The translations under genes and the position numbers were made by a program. From a virus: a stretch of 64,000 bases of DNA. The DNA lies in IMG/VR virus record IMGVR_UViG_3300050821_008584, positions 1-64,000 of that record; one strand, 5' to 3'. Shown here piece by piece: positions 2,435-57,584 of this stretch. Under the pieces are notes generated by a model. The model had not been told where the DNA came from. It ran no database searches and saw only the letters and a program-made list of their open reading frames with translations. Position 1 is the stretch's first letter. The number at the start of each line of letters is the position of its first letter.

Positions 2435-4234
2435 ATGGAAAGCCAAGAACAAAGCAAACCGCCTGTGGTGCAGCCGCCGAAGCCAAAGGGAGGCAAGCCG
2501 CGGCTCTATTACCAGTGTCCTAAGCATTCCTCGCATGCGTGGTCGAGTGACAACATGGAGACGGCGTATTGCTTCCGGTGTCACAAGACGAGATTAGAGT
2601 TATTGATTCCGCCTGCACCTGAGCCAAAAGAAGCGAACGATCTGGTTGAAGAATTAGTGAAAGGGGCGCAAGGGGATCCGTGTCCGATTCATGTACGGAA
2701 CGTGGACGGATTTCCGGAGCAGAAGCTGCTGGTGGAATCGCCGAAGAAACGGAAGATGGTACGAGCGGGAAGACGAGCAGGGAAAACTACTAGTTCTGCC
2801 ACTTTGACCGTAAATCATTTTGCGAATGGAGGAAGAGTTTTGTATGCCGTGCCTGTGGTGGACCAATTAGACAAATGGTGGAAAGAAGTAACGTGGAGTT
2901 TGAGGGAACTGATCAATGCGGGGAGGGTATACAAAAACGAGACCGAGCATGTGATTGAATTTCGAGGGACTGACAATAGGATCAAAGGAAAGACCGCATG
3001 GAATGCGGATTCATTAAGAGGAGACTGGTGCACACTTTTGATCCTGGATGAATACCAGCTGATGGACGAGACAGCGTGGACCGAAGTTGGTCAACCCATG
3101 ATGATAGACAAAGATGGCGATGCGGTATTGATTTATACGCCGCCATCTTTGGCTACGAAGTCGATCAGCAAAGCCAAAGACAAACAGCACGCCGCAAAAA
3201 TGTTCAAGCGGTGCCAGGCTGATAACGAATGGCTATGTTTGCATTTTTCCTCGAGAGCGAATCCGTTCATTTCGTCAGAAGGAATAGACAGAGCCGAGCG
3301 GAACATGAATAAAGTGGCGTTCATGCAAGAGATCGAAGCGCTTGATTGCGACGAAATACCAAACGCGCTCTGGACGCGGAAAGTATTGGACGACTCCAGA
3401 GTTTTATCAGCGAATTTTTGGGACCGGCAGCAACACCGATTTACCATATCGCCGGACTTGAGGGCGAAATATCCAGAAGCAAAAGAGGCACCGGCATTTC
3501 CGGACGGATATCGCAGGATCGTGGTGGCGATTGACCCATCGGGATCGACGACGACCGAAGTGGGAATTGTGGCGGCAGGCGAGGGCTATGACCAAGAGTT
3601 TTATGTTTTATTTGATGAATCCATGTTCGCGTCAAGGCCGAAGGCCTGGGCAGGAACTGCAATACGACTATTTGAGAAATGCAAGGCCGACCTGATAGTG
3701 GCAGAACGCAACTTTGGCGGTGATATGGTGGCTGAGACCCTCAAAACCGTAGACGAAAATATTCCCTATCGGGATGTGACTTCATCGCGCGGCAAATTGA
3801 TTCGCGCGCAACCGGTGAGTTCTTTGTCTGAACACAACCGGTGCCATATTGTCGGCGAGATGGAATTACTTGAGCAAGAGCTGGTATCCTACACAGGTAT
3901 GCCAGGTGAACGATCGCCGAACCGGTTAGACGCTATGGTGTTTGCTGTGACCGAACTGATTGGGCCCGGAACATTGGGCTTAATCGACTGGTTCAAGGTA
4001 GGAGCACCGGAGCAAATCACCATGCTAAAAACAACCGAGGCCGGAAACCTAGCGGCTGTAGCCACCAACGATCGAACACCGAAATGTCCAAAGTGCCATG
4101 AGGTAACGCTACAAACGAGAATTGCCGACCAGCTTCGATGTGGGCATTGCGGATTCCAACGTTTTGCAACAGGACAGCCAGAAGCTTCACCGATCGGTGG
4201 CCGCAGAATAATCGACCTTCACAAATACCGTTAA
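2435..4234 (+). CDS. terL: Phage terminase large subunit (TerL)
   Basis: 599 residues. This is the DNA-packaging motor: an ATPase that translocates genome into the prohead plus a nuclease that cuts it. The ATPase shows Walker A GRRAGKTT (about 112-119) and Walker B LLILDE (about 201-206). The RNase H-fold nuclease shows VVAIDPSG (about 364), LIVAERNFGG and a final Asp in PNRLDAMVFA. Zinc-ribbon-like cysteine sets lie at both ends (residues 28-49 and CPKCH...CGHC near 546-572), which is unusual for TerL. The protein ends GGRRIIDLHKYR, a variant of the PRRxIxF tail seen on several other proteins here. It is the only plus-strand gene in its neighbourhood and is followed by repeats. Confidence 0.92.
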   Translation: MESQEQSKPPVVQPPKPKGGKPRLYYQCPKHSSHAWSSDNMETAYCFRCHKTRLELLIPPAPEPKEANDLVEELVKGAQGDPCPIHVRNVDGFPEQKLLVESPKKRKMVRAGRRAGKTTSSATLTVNHFANGGRVLYAVPVVDQLDKWWKEVTWSLRELINAGRVYKNETEHVIEFRGTDNRIKGKTAWNADSLRGDWCTLLILDEYQLMDETAWTEVGQPMMIDKDGDAVLIYTPPSLATKSISKAKDKQHAAKMFKRCQADNEWLCLHFSSRANPFISSEGIDRAERNMNKVAFMQEIEALDCDEIPNALWTRKVLDDSRVLSANFWDRQQHRFTISPDLRAKYPEAKEAPAFPDGYRRIVVAIDPSGSTTTEVGIVAAGEGYDQEFYVLFDESMFASRPKAWAGTAIRLFEKCKADLIVAERNFGGDMVAETLKTVDENIPYRDVTSSRGKLIRAQPVSSLSEHNRCHIVGEMELLEQELVSYTGMPGERSPNRLDAMVFAVTELIGPGTLGLIDWFKVGAPEQITMLKTTEAGNLAAVATNDRTPKCPKCHEVTLQTRIADQLRCGHCGFQRFATGQPEASPIGGRRIIDLHKYR

Positions 4235-38348: not shown

Positions 38349-38588
38349 TCACCCATCATTTTTAGTCTCCGTTTTCTCGAATTGTATGATTCGCCGTGGC
38401 CGCAGTTCTAGCTCCGCGATCCTACGGTGCAATGCTGCAATTTCCTCTGCTGCCAGTGCCTTCTCATGCATCTTGGCGCGCCGCTCCCAATTCTTGAGCG
38501 ACGTATTCAGGCGACGGATACGCTTGAGCGTGGCCTTGACCATCTCCTGAGCCTCAACCAGTTTGCGTTTGCGTTTGGCCGTCTCCAT
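38349..38588 (-). CDS. Coiled-coil protein with PRRIIxF tail
   Basis: 79 residues, almost entirely a charged coiled coil (KMHEKALAAEEIAALHRRIA). Near the C-terminus it carries LRPRRIIQFEK followed by TETKNDG, a copy of the tail motif found on Ku, the terminase, the AAA+ ATPase and the SWIM proteins. Function unknown; a structural or adaptor role fits. Confidence 0.68.
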   Translation of the reverse strand: METAKRKRKLVEAQEMVKATLKRIRRLNTSLKNWERRAKMHEKALAAEEIAALHRRIAELELRPRRIIQFEKTETKNDG

Positions 38589-47326: not shown

Positions 47327-48511
47327 TTAGATATGGCAATCAATAATCGTTAGAATCGTATCGTCTGGCAGTCCATCGATCAGAGACGCGAACTTGATAT
47401 TCCATTCGTCGTGGTCTTCCTCGTTCGAGACGACTCCCCACCAGCCCATGCTGCCTCGCTCGTACCACTGGCCATCTTTGATGACTGCAAACGTCGTCAG
47501 AGCCCCGGCGCGTGCTCGGCGCAAATACTCTTCACGCGCTACCAGAAAGTCGTCCACCTCATACCATGTTGCCGTTTCGTTTTCACGAAGCGCGACTACC
47601 GCAGGTTGCTGATTGTAGTATTTTCTAGCGGCGTCAAAATCGACGTTAGGTCTACCTTTCCCATCGACACCGTTTTGATGAAGTTTTTTTACTTCCTCCC
47701 AGGTTAGAGGACGCTGGTGTGCTCCTATGATCGACCACACTAGATCGTATTTTCTTGCTGCCTTTTCTTCTGCTTCATTGCGCATTCCCTCGATGTCTAT
47801 GTCGCATTTCCGGCACAGATCGGCGCGGTCTCTCTCAGGTGCTTTGTAATCTGAAGCTATTGCTTGGATTCCTGGTTTGCCCAGGACGCCAACGCCAACC
47901 GCTTTCAATTTGAAATAGCCGGTCCAGCGGCCACCTACCGAATACCAATCCCATTTTTTGTTTGGGTTTGTGCGATCAACAACTTTCACGACTGTGCCGC
48001 CCGAATCTACCAGCGTGTAGCCGTATTTGTGTTTGCCAACCAGGTCAGGCTGTTCGCCAAAGGGAACAACTTTATGGCCATACCAGCCTTCAACAAACTT
48101 GGCGAGTGTCTCTGCTTCGGGAGTCGGAACCTCAACTTCATTCCAGCCCTCCGGCAATTGGAAAACTTTGGCACGGTAGCCCAGGCCGTCGTTCCAATCT
48201 GTTGAAAGCCAGCGGATACCACCGCCAAAGCCAGAGCCAAACATTTTGCCGTGCTCCGCTATCTCTTCTGGCGTTGGATCGCGCCAAAACTGTGGCTTGG
48301 CATTACCTTCTTCTGTATAAGGATTGTGAAGTATTCCCTCTGGATCACGGTATCGCGTGGTGGTGTGCTCAGTGTATTGAGCGCGAGCCTCTTCGGTTTG
48401 ATCTATGTTTTGAACGTACTGGTTATCGTCGCCAGTACTCTCAAACTTATGGAATGGAGCCAACTGCCCTTCAGGATCGTCACCTATAACTAGGACCGCA
48501 TAATGACTCAT
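47327..48511 (-). CDS. Conserved phage protein of unknown function
   Basis: 394 residues. MSHYAVLVIGDDPEGQLAPF at the N-terminus and KKWDWYSVGGRWTGYFKLK in the middle are hallmarks of a conserved family found in many phages. CRKCDIDIEG suggests a metal site. C-terminal part with FAVIKDGQWYERGSMGWWG. No biochemical role known to me. It lies directly downstream of Ku with a TAATG overlap, so the two are co-translated; a shared pathway is possible. Confidence 0.8.
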   Translation of the reverse strand: MSHYAVLVIGDDPEGQLAPFHKFESTGDDNQYVQNIDQTEEARAQYTEHTTTRYRDPEGILHNPYTEEGNAKPQFWRDPTPEEIAEHGKMFGSGFGGGIRWLSTDWNDGLGYRAKVFQLPEGWNEVEVPTPEAETLAKFVEGWYGHKVVPFGEQPDLVGKHKYGYTLVDSGGTVVKVVDRTNPNKKWDWYSVGGRWTGYFKLKAVGVGVLGKPGIQAIASDYKAPERDRADLCRKCDIDIEGMRNEAEEKAARKYDLVWSIIGAHQRPLTWEEVKKLHQNGVDGKGRPNVDFDAARKYYNQQPAVVALRENETATWYEVDDFLVAREEYLRRARAGALTTFAVIKDGQWYERGSMGWWGVVSNEEDHDEWNIKFASLIDGLPDDTILTIIDCHI

Positions 48512-49368
48512 TAGGCCGCCTTGCCTTTCTTGCCCTTGGTTTTTTCAGCAACTTTCGCCGGCTCTGGCTCAGCATTCAACTTGATCGACCGACGCGGCTT
48601 GGGAGTAGCGAGTGAAGCAGACAGCGCGGCCATGAGATCTTGGGCCGGAGGAGCGACTGCAACATTGACCGCTTGCGGTGCCTGGACCGACTTGTCCAGC
48701 TTGGATTCGATCAATTGAGTTAAGCGCATGTAGTAGCCATCTTCGAATATCTCGGGATTGAATTCGGAATCGAAACTTTCGGCCAGTTGTCGTGCCAATT
48801 TCAGTTCGGACGCTGTGAACGCGACCGCTTCCAGATCTTCGAATTCAGCGAGTCTTGCAATCTCTGTCGGATACCAAATGTAATGAACGATCAGCCCATT
48901 GCCTTTGGGCCGCAAGAGAATTACGTTCTCCCTGCCTGACTTGGCTAGTTGAGCAATGGCGACACGGCCAGTATCGGTGAGCGTCTTGACGAGGAGACCG
49001 TAGGCTTTGCGGCCGACATCTTCTGGCAGTAAATAAAAGGATTCGGCCAGATAGAGTGGGTCGACGTCGGCCCACTTGACGCATTCTGTAATCTCCAACA
49101 CTTTTCCGCTGCTTGGCGTAAGCTGTTCGATCTCTTCTTTGGTAATCTGAACGATCTTCCCGTCGATTGCATAGCCCTTGTAGATTTGTTCCGGAGCCAG
49201 CATCTCTTGGCAGGCGTTGCAATACTTCGGTTCTTTGACCGGACCATTGCATTTGGTGTGATAGGTATGCAGTTCAACGCGTTTGTCCCGGGCTCCTACG
49301 TACAACCGTACCGGGATATTCAACAAGCCGAAAGACAAATGTCCCTTCCAAACGGTATGCGCTCCCAT
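48511..49368 (-). CDS. ku: Ku-family DNA end-binding protein
   Basis: 285 residues. VWKGHLSFGLLNIPVRLYVG, CNGPVKEPKYCNACQEM, IYKGYAIDGKIVQITKEEIE, DPLYLAESFYLLPED and AYGLLVKTL are typical of prokaryotic Ku, which rings broken DNA ends and recruits a ligase for end joining. The tail (about 235-285) is basic and disordered and contains KPRRSIKL, the motif shared with other proteins here. Start at 49368 behind GGGAGAATCGAA. A WGR-ligase is at 39013. Ku is known in a few phages (for example mycobacteriophages Omega and Corndog), where it acts on genome ends. Confidence 0.93.
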   Translation of the reverse strand: MGAHTVWKGHLSFGLLNIPVRLYVGARDKRVELHTYHTKCNGPVKEPKYCNACQEMLAPEQIYKGYAIDGKIVQITKEEIEQLTPSSGKVLEITECVKWADVDPLYLAESFYLLPEDVGRKAYGLLVKTLTDTGRVAIAQLAKSGRENVILLRPKGNGLIVHYIWYPTEIARLAEFEDLEAVAFTASELKLARQLAESFDSEFNPEIFEDGYYMRLTQLIESKLDKSVQAPQAVNVAVAPPAQDLMAALSASLATPKPRRSIKLNAEPEPAKVAEKTKGKKGKAA

Positions 49369-49390
49369 TTCGATTCTCCCTTTTGCGAAC

Positions 49391-49771
49391 TTAGCGGCGT
49401 CGCGGTACCTGTTCCTGCTCGACATCTTCTAACTTCACAGCCTTGCTAAAAAATAGGTGAGCCTTACTGGCCGACCAATTTGCCCGATGAGCCAGAAATG
49501 TGGTGATTACGTGATTGACCGCATCCTGCCATCGCACAAATTTGCCAATCACGCGATGATTAAATCGTGCCCCCAACTGAAGGAGTGCCAGCCACTCCAT
49601 TCTGTGTTTGACATATCCGATTCGATAGCCATCCAGATAAATGTCCCACATCGTATTCGACTCGTTGTACAAAGCAACCAATTCACTGCCATCCACCAGT
49701 GTCTTAAAACGCCGCGGGGCCGGTTGGCCCGGCCCCACTTTTACTTTGGCAAATGGCTCCGGCTTTCTCAT
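49391..49771 (-). CDS. Hypothetical protein
   Basis: 126 residues, first gene behind the promoter at 49788 and immediately upstream of ku. Basic N-terminus (MRKPEPFAKVKVGPGQPAPR), an alpha/beta core with LYNESNTMWDIYLDGYRIGY, and an end reading EQVPRRR. The last residues resemble but do not complete the PRRxI tail. Function unknown; possibly a partner of Ku from position. Confidence 0.65.
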   Translation of the reverse strand: MRKPEPFAKVKVGPGQPAPRRFKTLVDGSELVALYNESNTMWDIYLDGYRIGYVKHRMEWLALLQLGARFNHRVIGKFVRWQDAVNHVITTFLAHRANWSASKAHLFFSKAVKLEDVEQEQVPRRR

Positions 49772-49787
49772 GGCTCTACACTCTCTT

Positions 49788-49816
49788 ATTGTATGTTACT
49801 TGCTACGATCTGTCAA
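49788..49816 (-). promoter_or_regulatory. Sigma70-type promoter for the ku operon
   Basis: Minus strand TTGACA (49811-49816), a 17-base spacer starting GATCGTAGC and TACAAT (49788-49793). It overlaps the last codons of the gene at 49803. Confidence 0.85.
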
Positions 49817-50885
49817 ATGTAATGATCCGTCGCGGTTTCAAAACAACCATCGTGTCTAGGGCGGCTTTGATGTTTTCAAAACCTTGCCTTACATGTGCCC
49901 GCAGTTCGTCGTTGGTTCGCAAAGACTCGGCGTCGTTGCCGGTGAGCAACTGTTTTGCCCGATCGACAAGAACCTTCATTTGAAGATCGTTGCCGATATT
50001 GCGTGGCTCGAAGTTTTCCAAAAACTGCTGGAACTTCGTGACAGAGCCTTCTTTGAACATTTTGAGCCGGCCTTCTTCGTTGGGCGCAAGCCTATCTGCC
50101 AAGTGATTGACGAACTCCGACATGTGGCTGCGAAGCATCTGTCTGTGAACTTGGGCGAGATCTGCCCAATCTTGCTGCGCTTTTCGGCGTTCCTCTTCGT
50201 AGATTTCCTTTGATACACCGGCCAAGTTCGGTGCGCTATCCACGTAAAGGAACCGCCACGACACTTGAAAGGCAGCCATCAGTTGTTCTCTGGTCATGTA
50301 GTCGGCCTCGTTATATTGGGGACCGAGCCTCTTTTGAGATTCTGCTTTGATGGCTTCGTAGCGTTTGCCGAGCGATTTGATGAATGGTTGAACGGTCGCA
50401 GTGCCTTCCTTGAGTTTGGCGTCCACTTGCATCACGAATGCGGTCGGCATGATGTATACGCCGCGCTTAATGTACGACGGCAAAGCCAAGTTCTCAACGT
50501 ACCGGCGCATCTCACCGTAGCTGGACGTGATCTTGTCTAGTTCTTCCGCTTCGATCAGCCGCTTCGTCAGGTGTAACCACGCCTTGTCCACTTCGCTTTC
50601 TTTGGCTGCGGCGCGCTTGTCACTTGACTTGACTTCTATGTTGTCAGTGTCCACCTTGCGGCGATTGCCGATGCCATGGAAAGTGAGGACCATAACGCAG
50701 GTGCGCGCCATGATCTGATCGGGCGAAACAAGTTCCGGATTCGTCGGCAATTTGATCGCCGGCAATGGTTGCAGTTTAATTGTCTTTTTTGGCGGCAGTG
50801 GCGGATTGCTGCGGTTCCTCTTGCGAGTCTCCCAAGCCTTCTGTGCTGCTGACTTCTGGATTGCACTACGTTGTGCTGATCTCAT
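49803..50885 (-). CDS. Large hypothetical protein with PRRIITF tail
   Basis: 360 residues. Basic Ser/Lys/Arg/Pro-rich N-terminus, then an alpha-helical body (KAWLHLTKRLIEAEELDKIT, EEERRKAQQDWADLAQVHRQ). It ends VLKPRRIITFDRS, the best copy of the shared C-terminal motif. The overall organisation recalls DUF3150-like proteins that neighbour AAA+ ATPases in phages, but I cannot confirm that family. Start at 50885 behind GGGAGAATCAAAA. Last gene of the cluster with DUF1257, SWIM and AAA+ proteins. Confidence 0.75.
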   Translation of the reverse strand: MRSAQRSAIQKSAAQKAWETRKRNRSNPPLPPKKTIKLQPLPAIKLPTNPELVSPDQIMARTCVMVLTFHGIGNRRKVDTDNIEVKSSDKRAAAKESEVDKAWLHLTKRLIEAEELDKITSSYGEMRRYVENLALPSYIKRGVYIMPTAFVMQVDAKLKEGTATVQPFIKSLGKRYEAIKAESQKRLGPQYNEADYMTREQLMAAFQVSWRFLYVDSAPNLAGVSKEIYEEERRKAQQDWADLAQVHRQMLRSHMSEFVNHLADRLAPNEEGRLKMFKEGSVTKFQQFLENFEPRNIGNDLQMKVLVDRAKQLLTGNDAESLRTNDELRAHVRQGFENIKAALDTMVVLKPRRIITFDRS

Positions 50886-50982
50886 TTTTGATTCTCCCTT
50901 TTGCTTCAAATCGGCGGACACTACCTTGGGGCCTGGGCTTCAGATCGGATTTGGTTGTGTCCGCCGTTTCGCTCACGCGAAA

Positions 50983-51255
50983 TCATGTAAACAACTTGGC
51001 TAACAACCACTTATGTTCGGCAGCTAGCGCTGCCGATCTAGTGGTGAAAGGTCCTAATATCGGGTTATCGACGTTCAAGTTGAATCGCTTGACCGCTGGC
51101 GACATGTCTGCAATCCATCGGCCGGATGGCGTGGGCTCAACGAAGCTAGCCCGCTTGATAGTCATTTGGCTGTCAGGGAATAGATCGGCCAAGATGTCAT
51201 CGTAGAGTGCAAAGATCTTTCCATTCGGAGCGATGCGCATACGATACGTAGTCAT
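50983..51255 (-). CDS. Small conserved-looking protein
   Basis: 90 residues. MTTYRMRIAPNGKIFALYDD and PILGPFTTRSAALAAEHKWL. The C-terminal LGPFxxRxxAxxAExxWL pattern looks like a short recurring phage module. The ATG overlaps the stop of the HNH remnant (ATGA). Function unknown. Confidence 0.65.
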   Translation of the reverse strand: MTTYRMRIAPNGKIFALYDDILADLFPDSQMTIKRASFVEPTPSGRWIADMSPAVKRFNLNVDNPILGPFTTRSAALAAEHKWLLAKLFT

Positions 51256-51563
51256 GGGTTATAAACCCTCCCGCTTTCTCCTCGCTTTATTCTGCCGACT
51301 TGGTGACGACTGATTCCGTATTCTTTGGCTATGGCTGTGTGAGATTTTGTCGATTTTCTAATTGCGTCCCACTTCTCTGGAGTTAATTTAATGTTGCCGT
51401 TCCTGGCCCGCCCGCGTACTACACAATCATGTATATTTTCCTTCTGAGTACCTTCAATAAGGTGCTCAGGCTGAATGCACAATGGCGTATCGCAGGTATG
51501 GCCAACAGCCGTTAGGTAACCTTGGATGAGTTCGTCGCAGCGTTTTGGTCTAAGGTCAACAAA
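51252..51563 (-). pseudogene. HNH endonuclease remnant lacking its N-terminus
   Basis: About 103 codons open after a TAG at 51564-51566, with no ATG. RCDELIQGYLTAVGHTCDTP, LCIQPEHLIEGTQKENIHDC and VVRGRARNG are the second half of an HNH homing endonuclease. The rest (KLTPEKWDAIRKSTKSHTAI and GISRHQVGRIKRG) is its usual DNA-binding helix-turn-helix. The N-terminal part with the first zinc ligands is missing. It is either a decayed homing gene or one needing amber read-through; the only possible N-terminus upstream is very short. Confidence 0.65.
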
Positions 51564-51590: not shown

Positions 51591-51785
51591 TCAGGCCCTA
51601 TTCTTAATCTGAACCTCTGTTTCTTTTTCATACATTTCGCTTGTGTTTTCACTGCTCACCACCTTTCCAAGGCCTTCTTCAAAAGTCTTTGTGAGTTCCT
51701 TGCATGATCTTCCCTTCACGCCCTTGACGCTGATAGTCGCGTTGCCTTCGGGCGAAACGCGGATTCGTACGATTTCCTCTGCCAT
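51591..51785 (-). CDS. DUF2997-family protein
   Basis: 64 residues. IVRIRVSPEGNATISVKGVK followed by GRSCKELTKTFEEGLGKV matches DUF2997, a small protein usually encoded next to DUF1257/Ycf35 and Ycf46-like AAA+ genes, exactly as here. Molecular role unknown. AAGGAGATCAC before the ATG. Confidence 0.82.
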   Translation of the reverse strand: MAEEIVRIRVSPEGNATISVKGVKGRSCKELTKTFEEGLGKVVSSENTSEMYEKETEVQIKNRA

Positions 51786-51794
51786 GTGATCTCC

Positions 51795-52178
51795 TTATTT
51801 GAGATTTATTATTCGTCGTGGCCGTAGAACGTATTCTTCTCGTTCCTTTCGTGCCTCATTTCGAGAGACGATCTGTTGTTCAGTTCGAATCAGACCGTCG
51901 AGCTGATTTAGATATTCACTATTTGCGTACGCAGGACTCTGAGGAACCGTCGTTATGTGATCGCATACTGGATCGCCAACTATTCGACGACCGTTCACCT
52001 GTCCGTTCGGACAATTGCAAATCCACATGTGATCGGCAGTGCGCAAAACACGAAACGCTGCTCCACCGCTACAAAGCGTCCATCCTATCTGCCCATCGGC
52101 ATCTACATAGATAGGAATGCGTCTCCCGCGGATATCGCGGCGTTCGCCGAACTCAAGCGGAGAAATTGTGTAGACCAA
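51795..52178 (-). CDS. SWIM-type zinc protein with PRRIINL tail
   Basis: 127 residues, TTG start behind GAGGTGACTTAAG. HMWICNCPNGQVNGRRIVGD then PVCDHIT gives CxC...CxH, a SWIM-like zinc site. The C-terminus is a charged helix followed by LRPRRIINLK. One of three tandem SWIM/PRRxI genes around the DUF1257 gene, probably paralogues. They may recruit partners to DNA or to the AAA+ protein; this is inference. Confidence 0.75.
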   Translation of the reverse strand: MVYTISPLEFGERRDIRGRRIPIYVDADGQIGWTLCSGGAAFRVLRTADHMWICNCPNGQVNGRRIVGDPVCDHITTVPQSPAYANSEYLNQLDGLIRTEQQIVSRNEARKEREEYVLRPRRIINLK

Positions 52179-52196
52179 CTTAAGTCACCTCGCAAC

Positions 52197-52601
52197 TTAT
52201 GTTCGTCGCGTGGCTATGACGTCGATAAAGCCTTGCGCGTCGACCGTTGTTCGAACCTTGAAGCCTTTCTTCTTCCATTGCTTCTTGGAATAGGCGACGG
52301 TGTATGCTTGCTTCAGTTTGTTAGCGTTTGGACCAACAAGTTCTTCGAGCCCGTAACCGCCACCATAAAAATCGGTTTGCAATCTGTGGCGACCAGGCCT
52401 GCCTGTCTCGGAGACCCCTATTTCAAACGCACGGCTGTTATTTGCTACGCGAATTGCATGATCGCAGCGACCTTGCTGGCCACCAAACTGCTTGAACGTT
52501 TTTTGGCCGCGCAGGAATTCCAGCCCAGGGATGCTTTTTACGGCATCCTCTAGGCAGTTGATGTCCGTGACTTCTAATTCTATGTCCGAGGTGTGACTCG
52601 T
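52197..52601 (-). CDS. DUF1257 (Ycf35-like) protein with apparent ACG start
   Basis: 134 residues. SHTSDIELEVTDINCLEDAV, a Gly/Gln-rich middle (FLRGQKTFKQFGGQQGRCDH), YGLEELVGPNANKLKQAYTV and GFKVRTTVDAQGFIDVIA match DUF1257, the bacterial relative of chloroplast Ycf35. Family members begin MSHFT; here the equivalent codon is ACG (52599-52601), seven bases after GAGAGGG, and no ATG/GTG/TTG fits. The ATG at 52621 is out of frame. Forms a cluster with DUF2997 and a Ycf46-like ATPase. Confidence 0.78.
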   Translation of the reverse strand, partial: TSHTSDIELEVTDINCLEDAVKSIPGLEFLRGQKTFKQFGGQQGRCDHAIRVANNSRAFEIGVSETGRPGRHRLQTDFYGGGYGLEELVGPNANKLKQAYTVAYSKKQWKKKGFKVRTTVDAQGFIDVIATRRT

Positions 52602-52617
52602 ATAGCTACCCTCTCTT

Positions 52618-52998
52618 TCATTTGTCGAATGTGATTTTTCTTCTTGGCCGTAATTCCGCCATCGGTGTGTCGTCTTTTTCACGTCTGATCTTCATTTCCT
52701 CGTCATACTGTTTCTTTACTTCCGCGCTGTGCTTAGCTTCCGCTGTGAGTTGTTCTCTCCTGCCTTCTCCTTTCCGGTGATGCACAAACGCCTCCGCAAT
52801 GTGTTCACACGCCGGCTTTATCCAAGGATGACCTGGACCGAACTTTGCGGTCGGTGTCCAGATTTTTGGTGGATCGCCTGAGCAATCGCATTGCCAAGTA
52901 CCATCTTGGTTAGCGCGAACTAAATTGGCTGGGCCACGAAGAGTTACAATACCAAATTCAATCGTGCCGTTCGGATACCTCCACGCTTTTGTAATCAT
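52618..52998 (-). CDS. SWIM-type zinc protein with PRRKITF tail
   Basis: 126 residues. TWQCDCSGDPPKIWTPTAKF with a later ACEHIAEAFVHH forms the CxCx(n)CxH SWIM signature with a 25-residue insert. A basic helical region follows and the protein ends AELRPRRKITFDK. Two codons separate it from the preceding SWIM gene. Role as for the other SWIM proteins. Confidence 0.75.
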   Translation of the reverse strand: MITKAWRYPNGTIEFGIVTLRGPANLVRANQDGTWQCDCSGDPPKIWTPTAKFGPGHPWIKPACEHIAEAFVHHRKGEGRREQLTAEAKHSAEVKKQYDEEMKIRREKDDTPMAELRPRRKITFDK

Positions 52999-53004
52999 TT
53001 TTGG

Positions 53005-53301
53005 TCAACCCAATTGAATGACACGACGAGTTTGCAAAACAAACACGGGATGCGATGTAGGCTCAGGTGGCCGTATCATCTGTCGCCGTGCCTGTTCCTG
53101 CATCTGCGTGATCGGCATTGCCTGATGTGGTTCTTCGGCCTTGACGCCAAGGATATGTTTACAATCCAGTTTTGGGGCTTTGCAAAACTTCCACCGTGGA
53201 CATGCGCAGGCCCATGTGCCGTCTAAGTACTCGGTCACCTTATAAACATCATCACCTGTATGGCTCCGAACTTCCCATTGATGAAGGAACGCGCGCGCCA
53301 T
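53005..53301 (-). CDS. SWIM-type zinc protein with TRRVIQL tail
   Basis: 98 residues. YLDGTWACACPRWKFCKAPK followed by LDCKHILGV is a compact SWIM site. It ends VFVLQTRRVIQLG, a variant of the tail motif. Start overlaps the AAA+ stop (TAATG). Confidence 0.75.
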   Translation of the reverse strand: MARAFLHQWEVRSHTGDDVYKVTEYLDGTWACACPRWKFCKAPKLDCKHILGVKAEEPHQAMPITQMQEQARRQMIRPPEPTSHPVFVLQTRRVIQLG

Positions 53302-54887
53302 TAATTCACCTGCTCTTTTTTGCCGCCGTTACCAGGTTCAGGCATGATCTTGCGTCTCGGCTTGGCTGGAATGACTCCGATCGCTACAACCATATCTGGT
53401 ACTGGCTCAGGTTCGATACCTTCCGGCGCATGATATAGACCGGAGTAGGTGGCAGAAATAAAGTTTCCATCTGCCTGTCGTCTAAGATCCTTGATCTTAT
53501 CCGCAGAGGAAACGGAAATGGGCACGATATACTTGGCCGCGTCCACTAGCGGACATGCCAAGACATGCGCGTTATAGCAGCAATTGCGGATTTCTGCAGC
53601 GGTCCAGCCTAAATCGTCTGGCCGCGGTCCCTCTATCTTGTATTTCTCCTGGTAGATTTTCCAAGCCGCCTCTTTTTCCGGTTTGGTCGGCAGATCGAAA
53701 AAGAACGTGCCAGATCTAAACCTGCGTCGCATCTCCGGCGGCAACGAATCGAATCTATTACACGTACAGATGTAGTACACCTGATCCTGACTTACGGCAT
53801 GGACCACCTTCAGGGCATTGCGAATGTTCTCGCCCGATTGGCCGACGTGCGAAGCTTTCATGCCGGCCAGATCGAAGAAGATCAACGGGACCCCCCACTC
53901 ATTGGCAATCGCTTTAGCAAGTAATGTTTTGCCGGCTCCAGCGACGCCGAGGAACGCACTCCCTTCTGCTTCGGTTTCTTCCATGTCTGTCAGAAGAGTG
54001 CCAACCATTTCGGTTGTGGTATCTCCGGTGCCGATCGCGCCAAAATTGGACATATGCTTGTCGATCTCGTCAATGAATACGATGGTGCGACGCCGCAAAG
54101 GCCCCATGCCGCGACGGCGATGAAATTCCTTGGCGTTATCGAGCCCGACAACGCTCTTGAAGTCATCCTTGCCGCGCCAGATGCTCAGGCCAGGCGTCAT
54201 TTCGATTTGCTGGCGTTTGCGTTCCCATAAGCTTTCAATATCAAGGCCCTTTTCGGTGATGCTCATGGCCGTAACCTGCTCTGCGGGAAAAGCTGCGAGG
54301 CCGGAGAGTGCTTCGACGGCACGTTCAAGGATTTCCTGTTTCGGCGATGGAAGATTTCCTGCCAAATACATTTCGCCCACAATAGCTGCCAGGCCAGCCG
54401 CGTCCGGAAGTGGTTCGTCCAGAATCAATACATCTTGCGCCAGCTGCGGAGGCAAAGTGATGGACGGGCAAAGCAGGACCAAAGTCTTATTTTCCTGTTT
54501 GAGTTTATCGCGAAGGTTCCAAACCGCCTGTATGACGCGATGATCGTTAAAGAAGAGATTCAGGTTGTATGCAAAGATTATAGTGCCTCTCGGGGTTGCT
54601 TCCTTCGCAGCTATCTTCACAAGGAAAGCCAAAGGATCTTCCAGACGATCTTCATCGTTATCACGGTCACGGTTTGGTTTTACCAGTTGCCGGACGACGT
54701 TTTTACCGTCCGGTTCGTTGACGCCCACTATGCCTGAGACGGAATCCCACAGGATCATGGCCGCAACCTGAGCCTTATCTCTGGCGATATCGGCGACCGT
54801 TGCGGCAGGATCCGCCGTGCGAATTGCAATGAGCGGGGTACTAACTCTACGAGCAGCACGAAAACGCTCTAAAAACGAAGTTTGCAT
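53301..54887 (-). CDS. Ycf46-like AAA+ ATPase with Walker B before Walker A
   Basis: 528 residues. The N-terminal 220 residues (ATVADIARDKAQVAAMILWD, VLLCPSITLPPQL) follow the Ycf46 pattern, as does KRQQIEMTPGLSIW and VVGLDNAKEF. Then the order is unusual: Walker B TIVFIDEIDK (268-277) comes first, Walker A GVAGAGKT (314-321) second, and sensor 1 CTCNRFD (374-380) and arginine finger RRRFR (387-391) last. In ordinary AAA+ proteins Walker A comes first; two blocks appear exchanged. Near the end AKPRRKIMPEP carries the shared motif. Leader GGGAGAATCAAAA before the ATG. Likely remodels a complex with the DUF1257, DUF2997 and SWIM neighbours. Confidence 0.85.
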   Translation of the reverse strand: MQTSFLERFRAARRVSTPLIAIRTADPAATVADIARDKAQVAAMILWDSVSGIVGVNEPDGKNVVRQLVKPNRDRDNDEDRLEDPLAFLVKIAAKEATPRGTIIFAYNLNLFFNDHRVIQAVWNLRDKLKQENKTLVLLCPSITLPPQLAQDVLILDEPLPDAAGLAAIVGEMYLAGNLPSPKQEILERAVEALSGLAAFPAEQVTAMSITEKGLDIESLWERKRQQIEMTPGLSIWRGKDDFKSVVGLDNAKEFHRRRGMGPLRRRTIVFIDEIDKHMSNFGAIGTGDTTTEMVGTLLTDMEETEAEGSAFLGVAGAGKTLLAKAIANEWGVPLIFFDLAGMKASHVGQSGENIRNALKVVHAVSQDQVYYICTCNRFDSLPPEMRRRFRSGTFFFDLPTKPEKEAAWKIYQEKYKIEGPRPDDLGWTAAEIRNCCYNAHVLACPLVDAAKYIVPISVSSADKIKDLRRQADGNFISATYSGLYHAPEGIEPEPVPDMVVAIGVIPAKPRRKIMPEPGNGGKKEQVN

Positions 54888-56226: not shown

Positions 56227-56855
56227 GATTTCTTTTCTTCCTCTGCGTTCCTTGCCTGCTGAACACTGATATCGCTGATAGCTTCGAGTGCCTGATAGTG
56301 TGGCTGAATTTCATCGAAACGATTGAATGGAACGCCCAAAAGGATCCAAATCATCTTGGGAGGAGGCTGCAGATCGATTTTGTCGATTCGCTTTCTGCCC
56401 TTGCCGTCGTTCAGAAGATTGTCCAACTCGATTGGTTCAAATAGTTCCGTTAGGTCGACGTCCGTACTCTTCAAGATGTCGGTGTCCCATTCCAGGTCAA
56501 CCTGCCCAACTCTGTTGTCATGGGCTGCCAGTTCTCTAGCCTTCTTGTCGTCACCTTCAAGATTGAGATCTTTCCGACGTACGGCAACCAGCGTATCGCC
56601 ATCAGAGTCCACCACCATGACTTTTTTGTAGCCCAACTGTCTGGCCTGCTCAAAGGTGGCATTCCCGGAGATCACGCGATTCTCAGCATCGAGCAATATC
56701 GATCGGCCGGCCCCAAACTTTTTGAGTGAAGACTTCAAAAGTTTTTTGCCGCGCGGCGTATGCCTGTTGGGATTGTTTCTGTCCGGCTTAATATCCTCGA
56801 TGGGCTCAAAATCAATGTCAGAGAGCAATGAATCATTTGCGTTTTTGGCTGCCAT
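56223..56855 (-). CDS. ParB-like nuclease-domain protein
   Basis: 210 residues. PIEDIKPDRNNPNRHTPRGK, LLDAENRVISGNATFEQARQ and GYKKVMVVDSDGD, LAAHDNRVGQV form the ParB N-terminal/nuclease fold that in phages often precedes DNA methyltransferase or transposase-like genes. The C-terminus is acidic and Pro/Lys-rich. Start at 56855 behind GGAG. May bind or modify DNA sites; a second ParB-type protein is at 27857. Confidence 0.8.
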   Translation of the reverse strand: MAAKNANDSLLSDIDFEPIEDIKPDRNNPNRHTPRGKKLLKSSLKKFGAGRSILLDAENRVISGNATFEQARQLGYKKVMVVDSDGDTLVAVRRKDLNLEGDDKKARELAAHDNRVGQVDLEWDTDILKSTDVDLTELFEPIELDNLLNDGKGRKRIDKIDLQPPPKMIWILLGVPFNRFDEIQPHYQALEAISDISVQQARNAEEEKKS

Positions 56856-57051
56856 TTCGAACATCTCCGTTATCTGCAATGCGCTTGTCGTTGGTTAAAA
56901 GATATTCCCAGTGGATGCGCCGAATGGTCTGAGCAGAAACACCGAAGCGTTTGCCGATCGCCGCTGCGTTGATACTTTCGGACAATAAAAGATTGATAAT
57001 TTTTTTGCGGTCTTCCGCAGAGAAAAGCGGCTTGGGGCCGTTATTACCAGA
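56833..57051 (-). CDS. Small helix-turn-helix protein
   Basis: 72 residues from ATG at 57051 (a TTG at 57102 is possible; neither has a clear ribosome-binding site). PLFSAEDRKKIINLLLSESI and NAAAIGKRFGVSAQTIRRIH form a homeodomain-like helix-turn-helix as in transposases and phage HNH C-termini. Overlaps the ParB-like gene. Likely DNA binding. Confidence 0.65.
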   Translation of the reverse strand, partial: SGNNGPKPLFSAEDRKKIINLLLSESINAAAIGKRFGVSAQTIRRIHWEYLLTNDKRIADNGDVRNGSQKRK

Positions 57052-57107
57052 CATGTAACTGGAGTGTATGGGTAAACCATAAGATAAGTCAAATAATGCC
57101 AATGTTA

Positions 57108-57584
57108 TTAGAGCAAAATCACACGCCGCGGCTTCACAAAGTCTGCCACTTTGGGCAGGCCAATCGGCTCAGAATTAGAGCAATTACAAACATCGCCGGC
57201 TGCATCCAGGGCTCTGCAATCCACATCCGGATGCAGATAGTGACCGCAGTGAACACATTTTTGCGTAGCACCGATCGTCGTAAGTCCGCTTCTGATAATA
57301 GCCTTGCATGAGTCGCAAACAGGACGCTGGTAGGTTGATTCGAAAAGCTGGGCGCAATTTGTGCACCGTATCCTGAACGTAGGTGGCGGTTCCGGCACAA
57401 CATTGTCTGGATGAAAGCCTCGATGGCGCAGTTCTGCTTTGACACTTTCTATAAGCCAATGCCATTTCGGACTGCTGGCATAGACGGATTCAAGAAGCCA
57501 AAGTAAATATTGGTCTGGTAGTGCAGCTACCTTACTGCCTTTGTATTGGCCTATGGGAATCGTGGCACGACCGTGCCGGCTCAA
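57108..57584 (-). CDS. Zinc-ribbon protein with PRRVILL tail
   Basis: 158 residues. The N-terminal 50 residues (ATIPIGQYKGSKVAALPDQY, LLWLLESVYAS) look like a DUF3820/exonuclease-associated small domain. They are followed by two zinc ribbons, RCTNCAQLF...CDSCKAI and CVHCGHYLH...CNCSNSEP. It ends VKPRRVILL, another copy of the shared tail. Coupled by ATGA. Confidence 0.72.
   Translation of the reverse strand: MSRHGRATIPIGQYKGSKVAALPDQYLLWLLESVYASSPKWHWLIESVKAELRHRGFHPDNVVPEPPPTFRIRCTNCAQLFESTYQRPVCDSCKAIIRSGLTTIGATQKCVHCGHYLHPDVDCRALDAAGDVCNCSNSEPIGLPKVADFVKPRRVILL

Follow-up and report, generated by a model that had tools for sequence, protein, structure and literature searches.

The first 64 kb of the IMG/VR virus record IMGVR_UViG_3300050821_008584 (164,879 bp), hereafter the window, belong to a phage of a soil bacterium and contain at 51591–54887 a single, contiguous and tightly packed operon on the - strand, in which an AAA+ ATPase with exchanged core motifs is encoded together with several partner proteins. 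An initial annotation had described this stretch as a cluster of DUF2997, DUF1257/Ycf35, three SWIM-type zinc proteins and a Ycf46-like ATPase, and every gene that it named is present there, side by side and on this strand. Along the operon follow a Ycf46-family AAA+ ATPase of 528 amino acids (aa) with a segment-swapped core and the C-terminal tail KPRRKI (53301..54887), recognized from motifs, Pfam, profile alignment and an AlphaFold model; SWIM-type zinc protein 1 (98 aa, tail QTRRVIQLG; 53005..53301); SWIM-type zinc protein 2 (126 aa, tail RPRRKITFDK; 52618..52998); a Ycf35/DUF1257 family protein (52197..52601); SWIM-type zinc protein 3 (127 aa, tail RPRRIINLK; 51795..52178); and a DUF2997 protein (64 aa; 51591..51785). 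On the same strand lie a fifth conserved small protein of about 90 aa with the signature EPTxxGxWxxDxSP...GPF (50983..51255), a DUF3150-family protein with the tail KPRRIITFDRS (49803..50921) and an associated Ku-like DNA-end-binding protein that has the tail-like sequence PKPRRSIKL close to its C-terminal end (48511..49425), for which the evidence of membership is weaker. Compared with L002, a relative with 72% identity, the ratio of non-synonymous to synonymous substitution is 0.08–0.31 for eight of nine genes (protein identity 43–76% for these); SWIM-type protein 3 has diverged too far from its L002 counterpart for an estimate.

The canonical order of Walker A, Walker B and sensor 1 is broken in the window ATPase. 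The protein matches Pfam AAA (E 4.7e-17), with the match split over several separate stretches, and its Walker B motif TIVFIDEIDK is found some 46 residues N-terminal of the lysine in the Walker A motif GVAGAGKT. The transposed Walker B block (residues 268–307, TIVFIDEIDK...EETEA; 53967..54086, - strand) precedes the Walker A block (residues 308–366, EGSAFLGVAGAGKT...VHAVS; 53790..53966, - strand), and the sensor-1 strand comes directly after the latter. When a profile of three swapped proteins was compared with Cdc48, the matching pieces were three and non-colinear: profile positions 309–368 correspond to chain positions 521–580 and 269–314 to 581–628, and in the first Cdc48 domain 368–445 matches after the Walker B piece. 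The remainder of the protein identifies its family. Homology to a canonical Ycf46-type protein of the cyanobacterium Pseudanabaena runs over the full length, N-terminal half included (hhalign of the ATPase family, probability 100, E 1.7e-42, 438 columns, profile 8–490; BLASTP, E 5e-28), and the Walker B block of cyanobacterial Ycf46 appears as an insertion exactly at a gap in the phage protein, this being the sole large displaced piece. Canonical relatives from planctomycetes and plasmids have the corresponding blocks in the usual order. As judged from these alignments, the window ATPase is a rearranged branch descended from the Ycf46 family. Since the record is metagenomic, the swapped order might be thought an artefact of assembly or annotation, but the same order is found within one open frame in 70 sequences from independent assemblies, among them the complete genome of Tunturi_3, an isolated Tunturiibacter phage whose swapped ATPase is gp103. 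Because independent copies share the swap, this explanation is refuted and retains a negligible probability.

The swap is widespread, and its sequence record points to an old and single origin. Scans of viral contigs and genomes, named phages included, gave 162 classifiable ATPases, 70 with swapped and 92 with canonical block order and none with an intermediate arrangement; duplication-type A-B-A-B intermediates that would display how the swap arose were likewise absent from the 162 proteins. Swapped copies come from many metagenomes, of soil and other sources, and from contigs of metagenome-assembled genomes (MAGs) of Acidobacteria, Armatimonadetes, Nitrospirota and deltaproteobacteria. Trees were built from 151 near-complete proteins, and in them the swapped members, all 63, fall into one clade, whose support is 1.0 if the swapped blocks are omitted and 0.996 if only these blocks are used. 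The agreement of the two trees indicates one transposition and not the acquisition of a foreign domain. Two of the sources call for comment. At 1092–2558 of locus L051, the reading frame of a swapped-clade ATPase has eight stops in reconstruction and represents a pseudogene or a frameshifted assembly. L093 (JABCZL010000017.1), in an Acidobacteria MAG, is 123,707 bp long and has the same size and match as the IMG/VR contig behind L002; it is therefore apparently a phage contig that was binned as host.

The residues expected of a working ATPase have been retained. The Walker A lysine K320, the Walker B pair D273/E274, the sensor-1 asparagine N377 and R389, a putative arginine finger, do not vary among 32 diverse swapped proteins. 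The AlphaFold model (mean predicted local distance difference test score 86, predicted template modelling score 0.78) has an AAA+ fold, with an ordered core and the expected five core strands, which follow one another along the chain as beta3, beta1, beta2, beta4 and beta5 in our assignment of strand names. The catalytic AAA+ domain is preceded by an N-terminal half that is AAA-like and has no recognizable nucleotide-binding motifs. In VIA-align, the model superimposes on p97 D2 (3cf0) with Z 15.8 and a root-mean-square deviation (rmsd) of 2.7 over 201 residues; this alignment omits 44 residues of the stretch 232–476, about the size of the moved block, and thus may not test the place of that block. 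Over the whole length the model matches p97 D1-D2 with Z 17.6 and an rmsd of 6.1 over 397 residues. A single transposition in an ancestor of this clade placed the Walker B block ahead of Walker A. Each of the two junctions separates a helix from the strand that follows it, and the chain can therefore still form the same five-strand core. From its residues and its predicted structure, the swapped ATPase looks functional, and it is presumably active.

For the partner proteins, direct and family-level evidence must be distinguished. The DUF2997 protein matches Pfam PF11211 well above the cut-off (E 9.8e-16; 57.8 bits against 24.1). The window DUF1257, DUF3150-like and fifth proteins have no Pfam match above threshold, and evidence from their families was therefore used. 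The Ycf35/DUF1257 protein gives no match to Pfam DUF1257 (PF06868) at E<=1; within its family, 23 of the 27 members match at E<=0.1 (best 2.1e-15), and a profile of the family finds a DUF1257 protein of a cyanobacterial plasmid with E 9.7e-19. Its frame begins with ACG (52599–52601), where the closest homologue, that of L002, has ATG. ACG is the likely start and may be a non-standard start codon or a mutation, or else an upstream GTG overlapping the SWIM gene may be used. All three SWIM-type proteins have a CxC...CxH motif. Protein 1 approaches Pfam SWIM (PF04434) weakly and below the cut-off (E 0.015; 15.3 bits against 19.6), so we speak of SWIM-type proteins and not of SWIM members; as the only one of the three to touch this model is protein 1, proteins 2 and 3 are assigned by the motif. 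The 49803 protein has no direct match to Pfam DUF3150 (PF11348). Homologues were found at 119 loci, however, and 24 of 56 tested match this family (best E 3.1e-25). Its structural model found no solved homologue below E 0.4 in Foldseek, and VIA-align returned generic helical bundles alone. The protein at 50983–51255 has no Pfam match above threshold and belongs to a conserved family present at 63 loci. On these family comparisons, the former is a DUF3150-family protein and core member of the module, and the latter an additional core component. Within the module, at 51252–51482, there is also a small helix-turn-helix-like protein, and a second one with similar motifs is encoded at 56833–57102.

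The same genes occur together in many other phages, plasmids and planctomycete genomes. Counting loci of at least 12 kb, with presence scored anywhere within the fetched locus, the 46 swapped loci contain DUF1257 in 44 cases, DUF3150 in 45, DUF2997 in 30 and the fifth protein in 18; the corresponding numbers for the 52 canonical loci are 44, 33, 41 and 24. A Candidatus Manganitrophus plasmid has an annotated operon of AAA, DUF1257, DUF2997 and DUF3150 followed by the fifth protein, and planctomycete contigs have DUF1257 and DUF2997 before and DUF3150 after the ATPase. The initial annotation had named the conservation of the neighbours as its own test, and since they are kept together elsewhere its proposal survives. 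Two of its points have to be amended. It was right that the large 49803 protein carries the tail, but this protein is a core component and not a flanking extra; and phages do carry the module, but so do planctomycete contigs, Ca. Manganitrophus and cyanobacterial plasmids. The segment swap of the ATPase and the core status of the 49803 and 50983 proteins had been missed.

In this phage the module adjoins genes for DNA replication and recombination. Near the swapped modules that were sampled, viral contigs encode, among others, annealing proteins of the RecT and Bet types together with Ku, DnaB helicase, DNA polymerase and primase, and MAG contigs encode Rad52, archaeo-eukaryotic primase, sliding clamp and helicases. 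Other settings suggest other functions. On Cupriavidus plasmids, the DUF3150 gene is flanked by those for a MoxR-like ATPase and a VWA protein, MoxR-VWA pairs are known to drive metal insertion, and a DUF2997-ycf35-ferredoxin cluster exists in Synechocystis (PMC4284462). The module could by analogy be a chaperone for insertion of metals or cofactors, with DUF3150 as the shared partner and the SWIM proteins as metal carriers or targets; yet the sampled phage modules show no recurring metalloenzyme and no recognized VWA gene, and we regard this as decidedly unlikely. A system for anti-phage defence or counter-defence is very improbable. Canonical relatives do match IetA-type AAA ATPase models of PADLOC (E 4e-19), but they do so through the generic AAA domain, and the partner proteins match no PADLOC model at E<=0.01.

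What connects several of these proteins is the C-terminal tail. The initial annotation had pointed it out, and it proves both enriched and recurrent: the strict PRRxI-type tail is found on four of nine cluster genes, compared with five of the 261 genes in the rest of the 164,879-bp record (Fisher p 7e-5), and in other genomes it is carried by the same partners. Defined more generally as RxPhi (R, any residue, then I/V/L/F/M) and scored over the last 24 residues, it is present in 97% of ATPases and in an equal share of DUF3150 proteins; internal windows of the two contain it at 37% and 46%, respectively. The tail arginine is the sole invariant residue in 56 aligned DUF3150-family proteins. The tails also appear to vary together. 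Those of ATPase and DUF3150 protein resemble one another more within a genome than in random pairs (18.4 vs 14.5, p 2e-4; 18.0 vs 14.8 in the swapped clade), a comparison partly corrected for common descent, and an ATPase tail is seen in 74 of 75 cases with DUF3150 found vs 13 of 21 without, in counts uncorrected for phylogeny. Tailed SWIM-type proteins adjoin the module at L014, L024, L028, L030, L038, L041, L046, L088, L099, L112 and other loci, the tails of L041 and L088 falling outside the automatic pattern and being read by eye. A search with a loose pattern over the C-termini of arbitrary neighbours came out near chance (66 observed, 44 expected, shuffled maximum 66); the comparisons used are component-specific ones only.

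In this phage the motif is also seen in Ku and the terminase, as well as in a few small proteins. The terminase-like protein (599 aa; 2435–4234) ends in GGRRIIDLHKYR, similar to the module tail, and three more small proteins have a PRRxI-type tail (38349–38588 and 57108–57584 of the window; 157594–158049 of the record).

Two other roles for the tail can be considered. It might be a basic peptide for binding nucleic acid, gained independently by DNA-associated proteins and without any common docking site. The tails are arginine-rich in many lineages, and terminase and Ku carry one here; many others, however, have a single arginine in an acidic stretch (e.g. SRAISFDED, GRKFRFDEE), and what is conserved is one arginine and a spaced hydrophobic residue, which makes this explanation unlikely. 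The other possibility, doubtful but deserving more weight, is that the module acts as a chaperone or unfoldase of a general kind and that RxPhi is an ssrA-type tag by which proteins are threaded into the pore of the ATPase. This would suit the p97-like architecture and the presence of Hsp70 and GrpE beside DUF1257, DUF2997 and Ycf46 on a Pseudanabaena plasmid (L173, NZ_CP112875.1), where the operon reads GrpE, Hsp70, DUF1257, ATP-binding protein, hypothetical protein, DUF2997 and Ycf46. Against it, the tail is on the ATPase itself in 97% of cases, it lies near the end of the protein and often has more residues after it, as suits docking better than a degradation tag, and no protease gene was recognized in the sampled neighbourhoods.

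We therefore favour a docking function and propose, with a probability of about 0.5, that the module encodes a multi-subunit, p97-like AAA+ remodelling machine with tail-docked partners that probably acts on replication or recombination nucleoprotein. The motor would be the Ycf46-family ATPase with its p97-like architecture, and its partners Ycf35/DUF1257, DUF2997, DUF3150 and the fifth protein, joined in many lineages by at least one SWIM-type zinc protein; together they would form one physical complex. The RxPhi peptide of the ATPase, DUF3150 and SWIM proteins, specific to each lineage, probably fills a common docking site, in the way that the C-terminus of NorD docks on the NorQ AAA+ ring (PMC13036017). 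The substrate is likely to be DNA-related, with ATP-driven remodelling of a phage replication or recombination nucleoprotein assembly as the probable activity and the SWIM proteins and Ku as adaptors or clients. Several points weigh against this proposal. The genomic context is suggestive only, because replication and recombination neighbours are common in phages. The correction of the tail comparison for common descent is incomplete, the exact three-dimensional place of the moved block may be no better defined than the AlphaFold model from which it comes, and for all members studied the evidence consists of sequences and predicted structures. The Hsp70/GrpE context and the link of cyanobacterial Ycf46 to CO2 utilization favour a more general role in protein remodelling. 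The activity of the carbonic anhydrase EcaB falls in cyanobacteria when Ycf46 is lost (Jiang et al. 2015, as cited in PMC7496141), and the substrate may accordingly not be the same in every setting. The reading that a naturally rearranged AAA+, fixed once and since retained in a widespread phage lineage, drives an undescribed machine of five to eight proteins docked via a shared C-terminal RxPhi peptide that co-varies is one that we think rather probable.

No description of a segment-swapped or permuted AAA+ or of this gene set was found in the open-access literature, a scope that excludes most subscription papers, and searches there for DUF1257, DUF2997 and DUF3150 likewise turned up no description of the system; annotation databases may hold unremarked copies of either. 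The novelty is a rearranged Ycf46 branch in a module built from known domain families. AAA+ ATPases are heavily studied motors, which are both defined and searched for by their motif order. A conserved lineage with exchanged core blocks suggests that the AAA+ fold tolerates new connectivity with its catalytic residues kept, and puts AAA+ folding and evolution directly to the test. The module provides a testable common context, in culturable phages, for Ycf46, Ycf35, DUF2997 and DUF3150, families on which we found little or no functional work, and the RxPhi tail offers an easy way to search for the complex.

Apart from the module, the window has two tRNA genes at 19650–19863, both supported as tRNAs by Rfam. 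One has a CTA anticodon and is labelled tRNA-Pyl by ARAGORN; the other has a four-base TCTA anticodon. The CTA tRNA prompted a check for TAG recoding, which is not generally evident because TAG ends 27 of 131 long open reading frames in the record.

Among known systems, the closest is cyanobacterial and plastid Ycf46 (Slr0374-type), which has in common with the phage ATPase the N-terminal half, the AAA+ blocks, the C-terminal region and the DUF1257 and DUF2997 neighbours. The examined cyanobacterial Ycf46 has canonical order, no RxPhi tail and no recognized DUF3150 neighbour, whereas the phage clade has a moved Walker B, the tail, DUF3150 and often SWIM partners. The canonical phage AAA ATPases (gp100 of Corndog-type mycobacteriophages and those of Rhizobium phages L338C and RHph_I4) are of the same family; RHph_I4 has DUF1257 and DUF2997 genes close downstream of the ATPase, and Firecracker encodes Ku nearby, as the window phage does. 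They differ in having Walker A before Walker B, and no DUF3150 homologue was detected in their loci. With p97/Cdc48 and Rix7 the window ATPase shares two AAA-like halves, the catalytic one resembling D2, but its first half is without nucleotide-binding motifs, its block order is different and it has no p97 N-domain. MoxR-VWA systems such as NorQ-NorD and the Cupriavidus MoxR-DUF3150-VWA set, the latter having DUF3150 in common with the phage module, also pair an AAA+ with a dedicated partner, as we propose here; theirs is another AAA+ family, with a VWA protein in place of Ycf35/DUF2997. A non-standard motif order is also found in circularly permuted P-loop GTPases of the YjeQ/RsgA kind, in which the fold is thought to be kept. 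These are GTPases with a circular shift of their G motifs, whereas the phage ATPase is an otherwise colinear AAA+ in which one block has been transposed.

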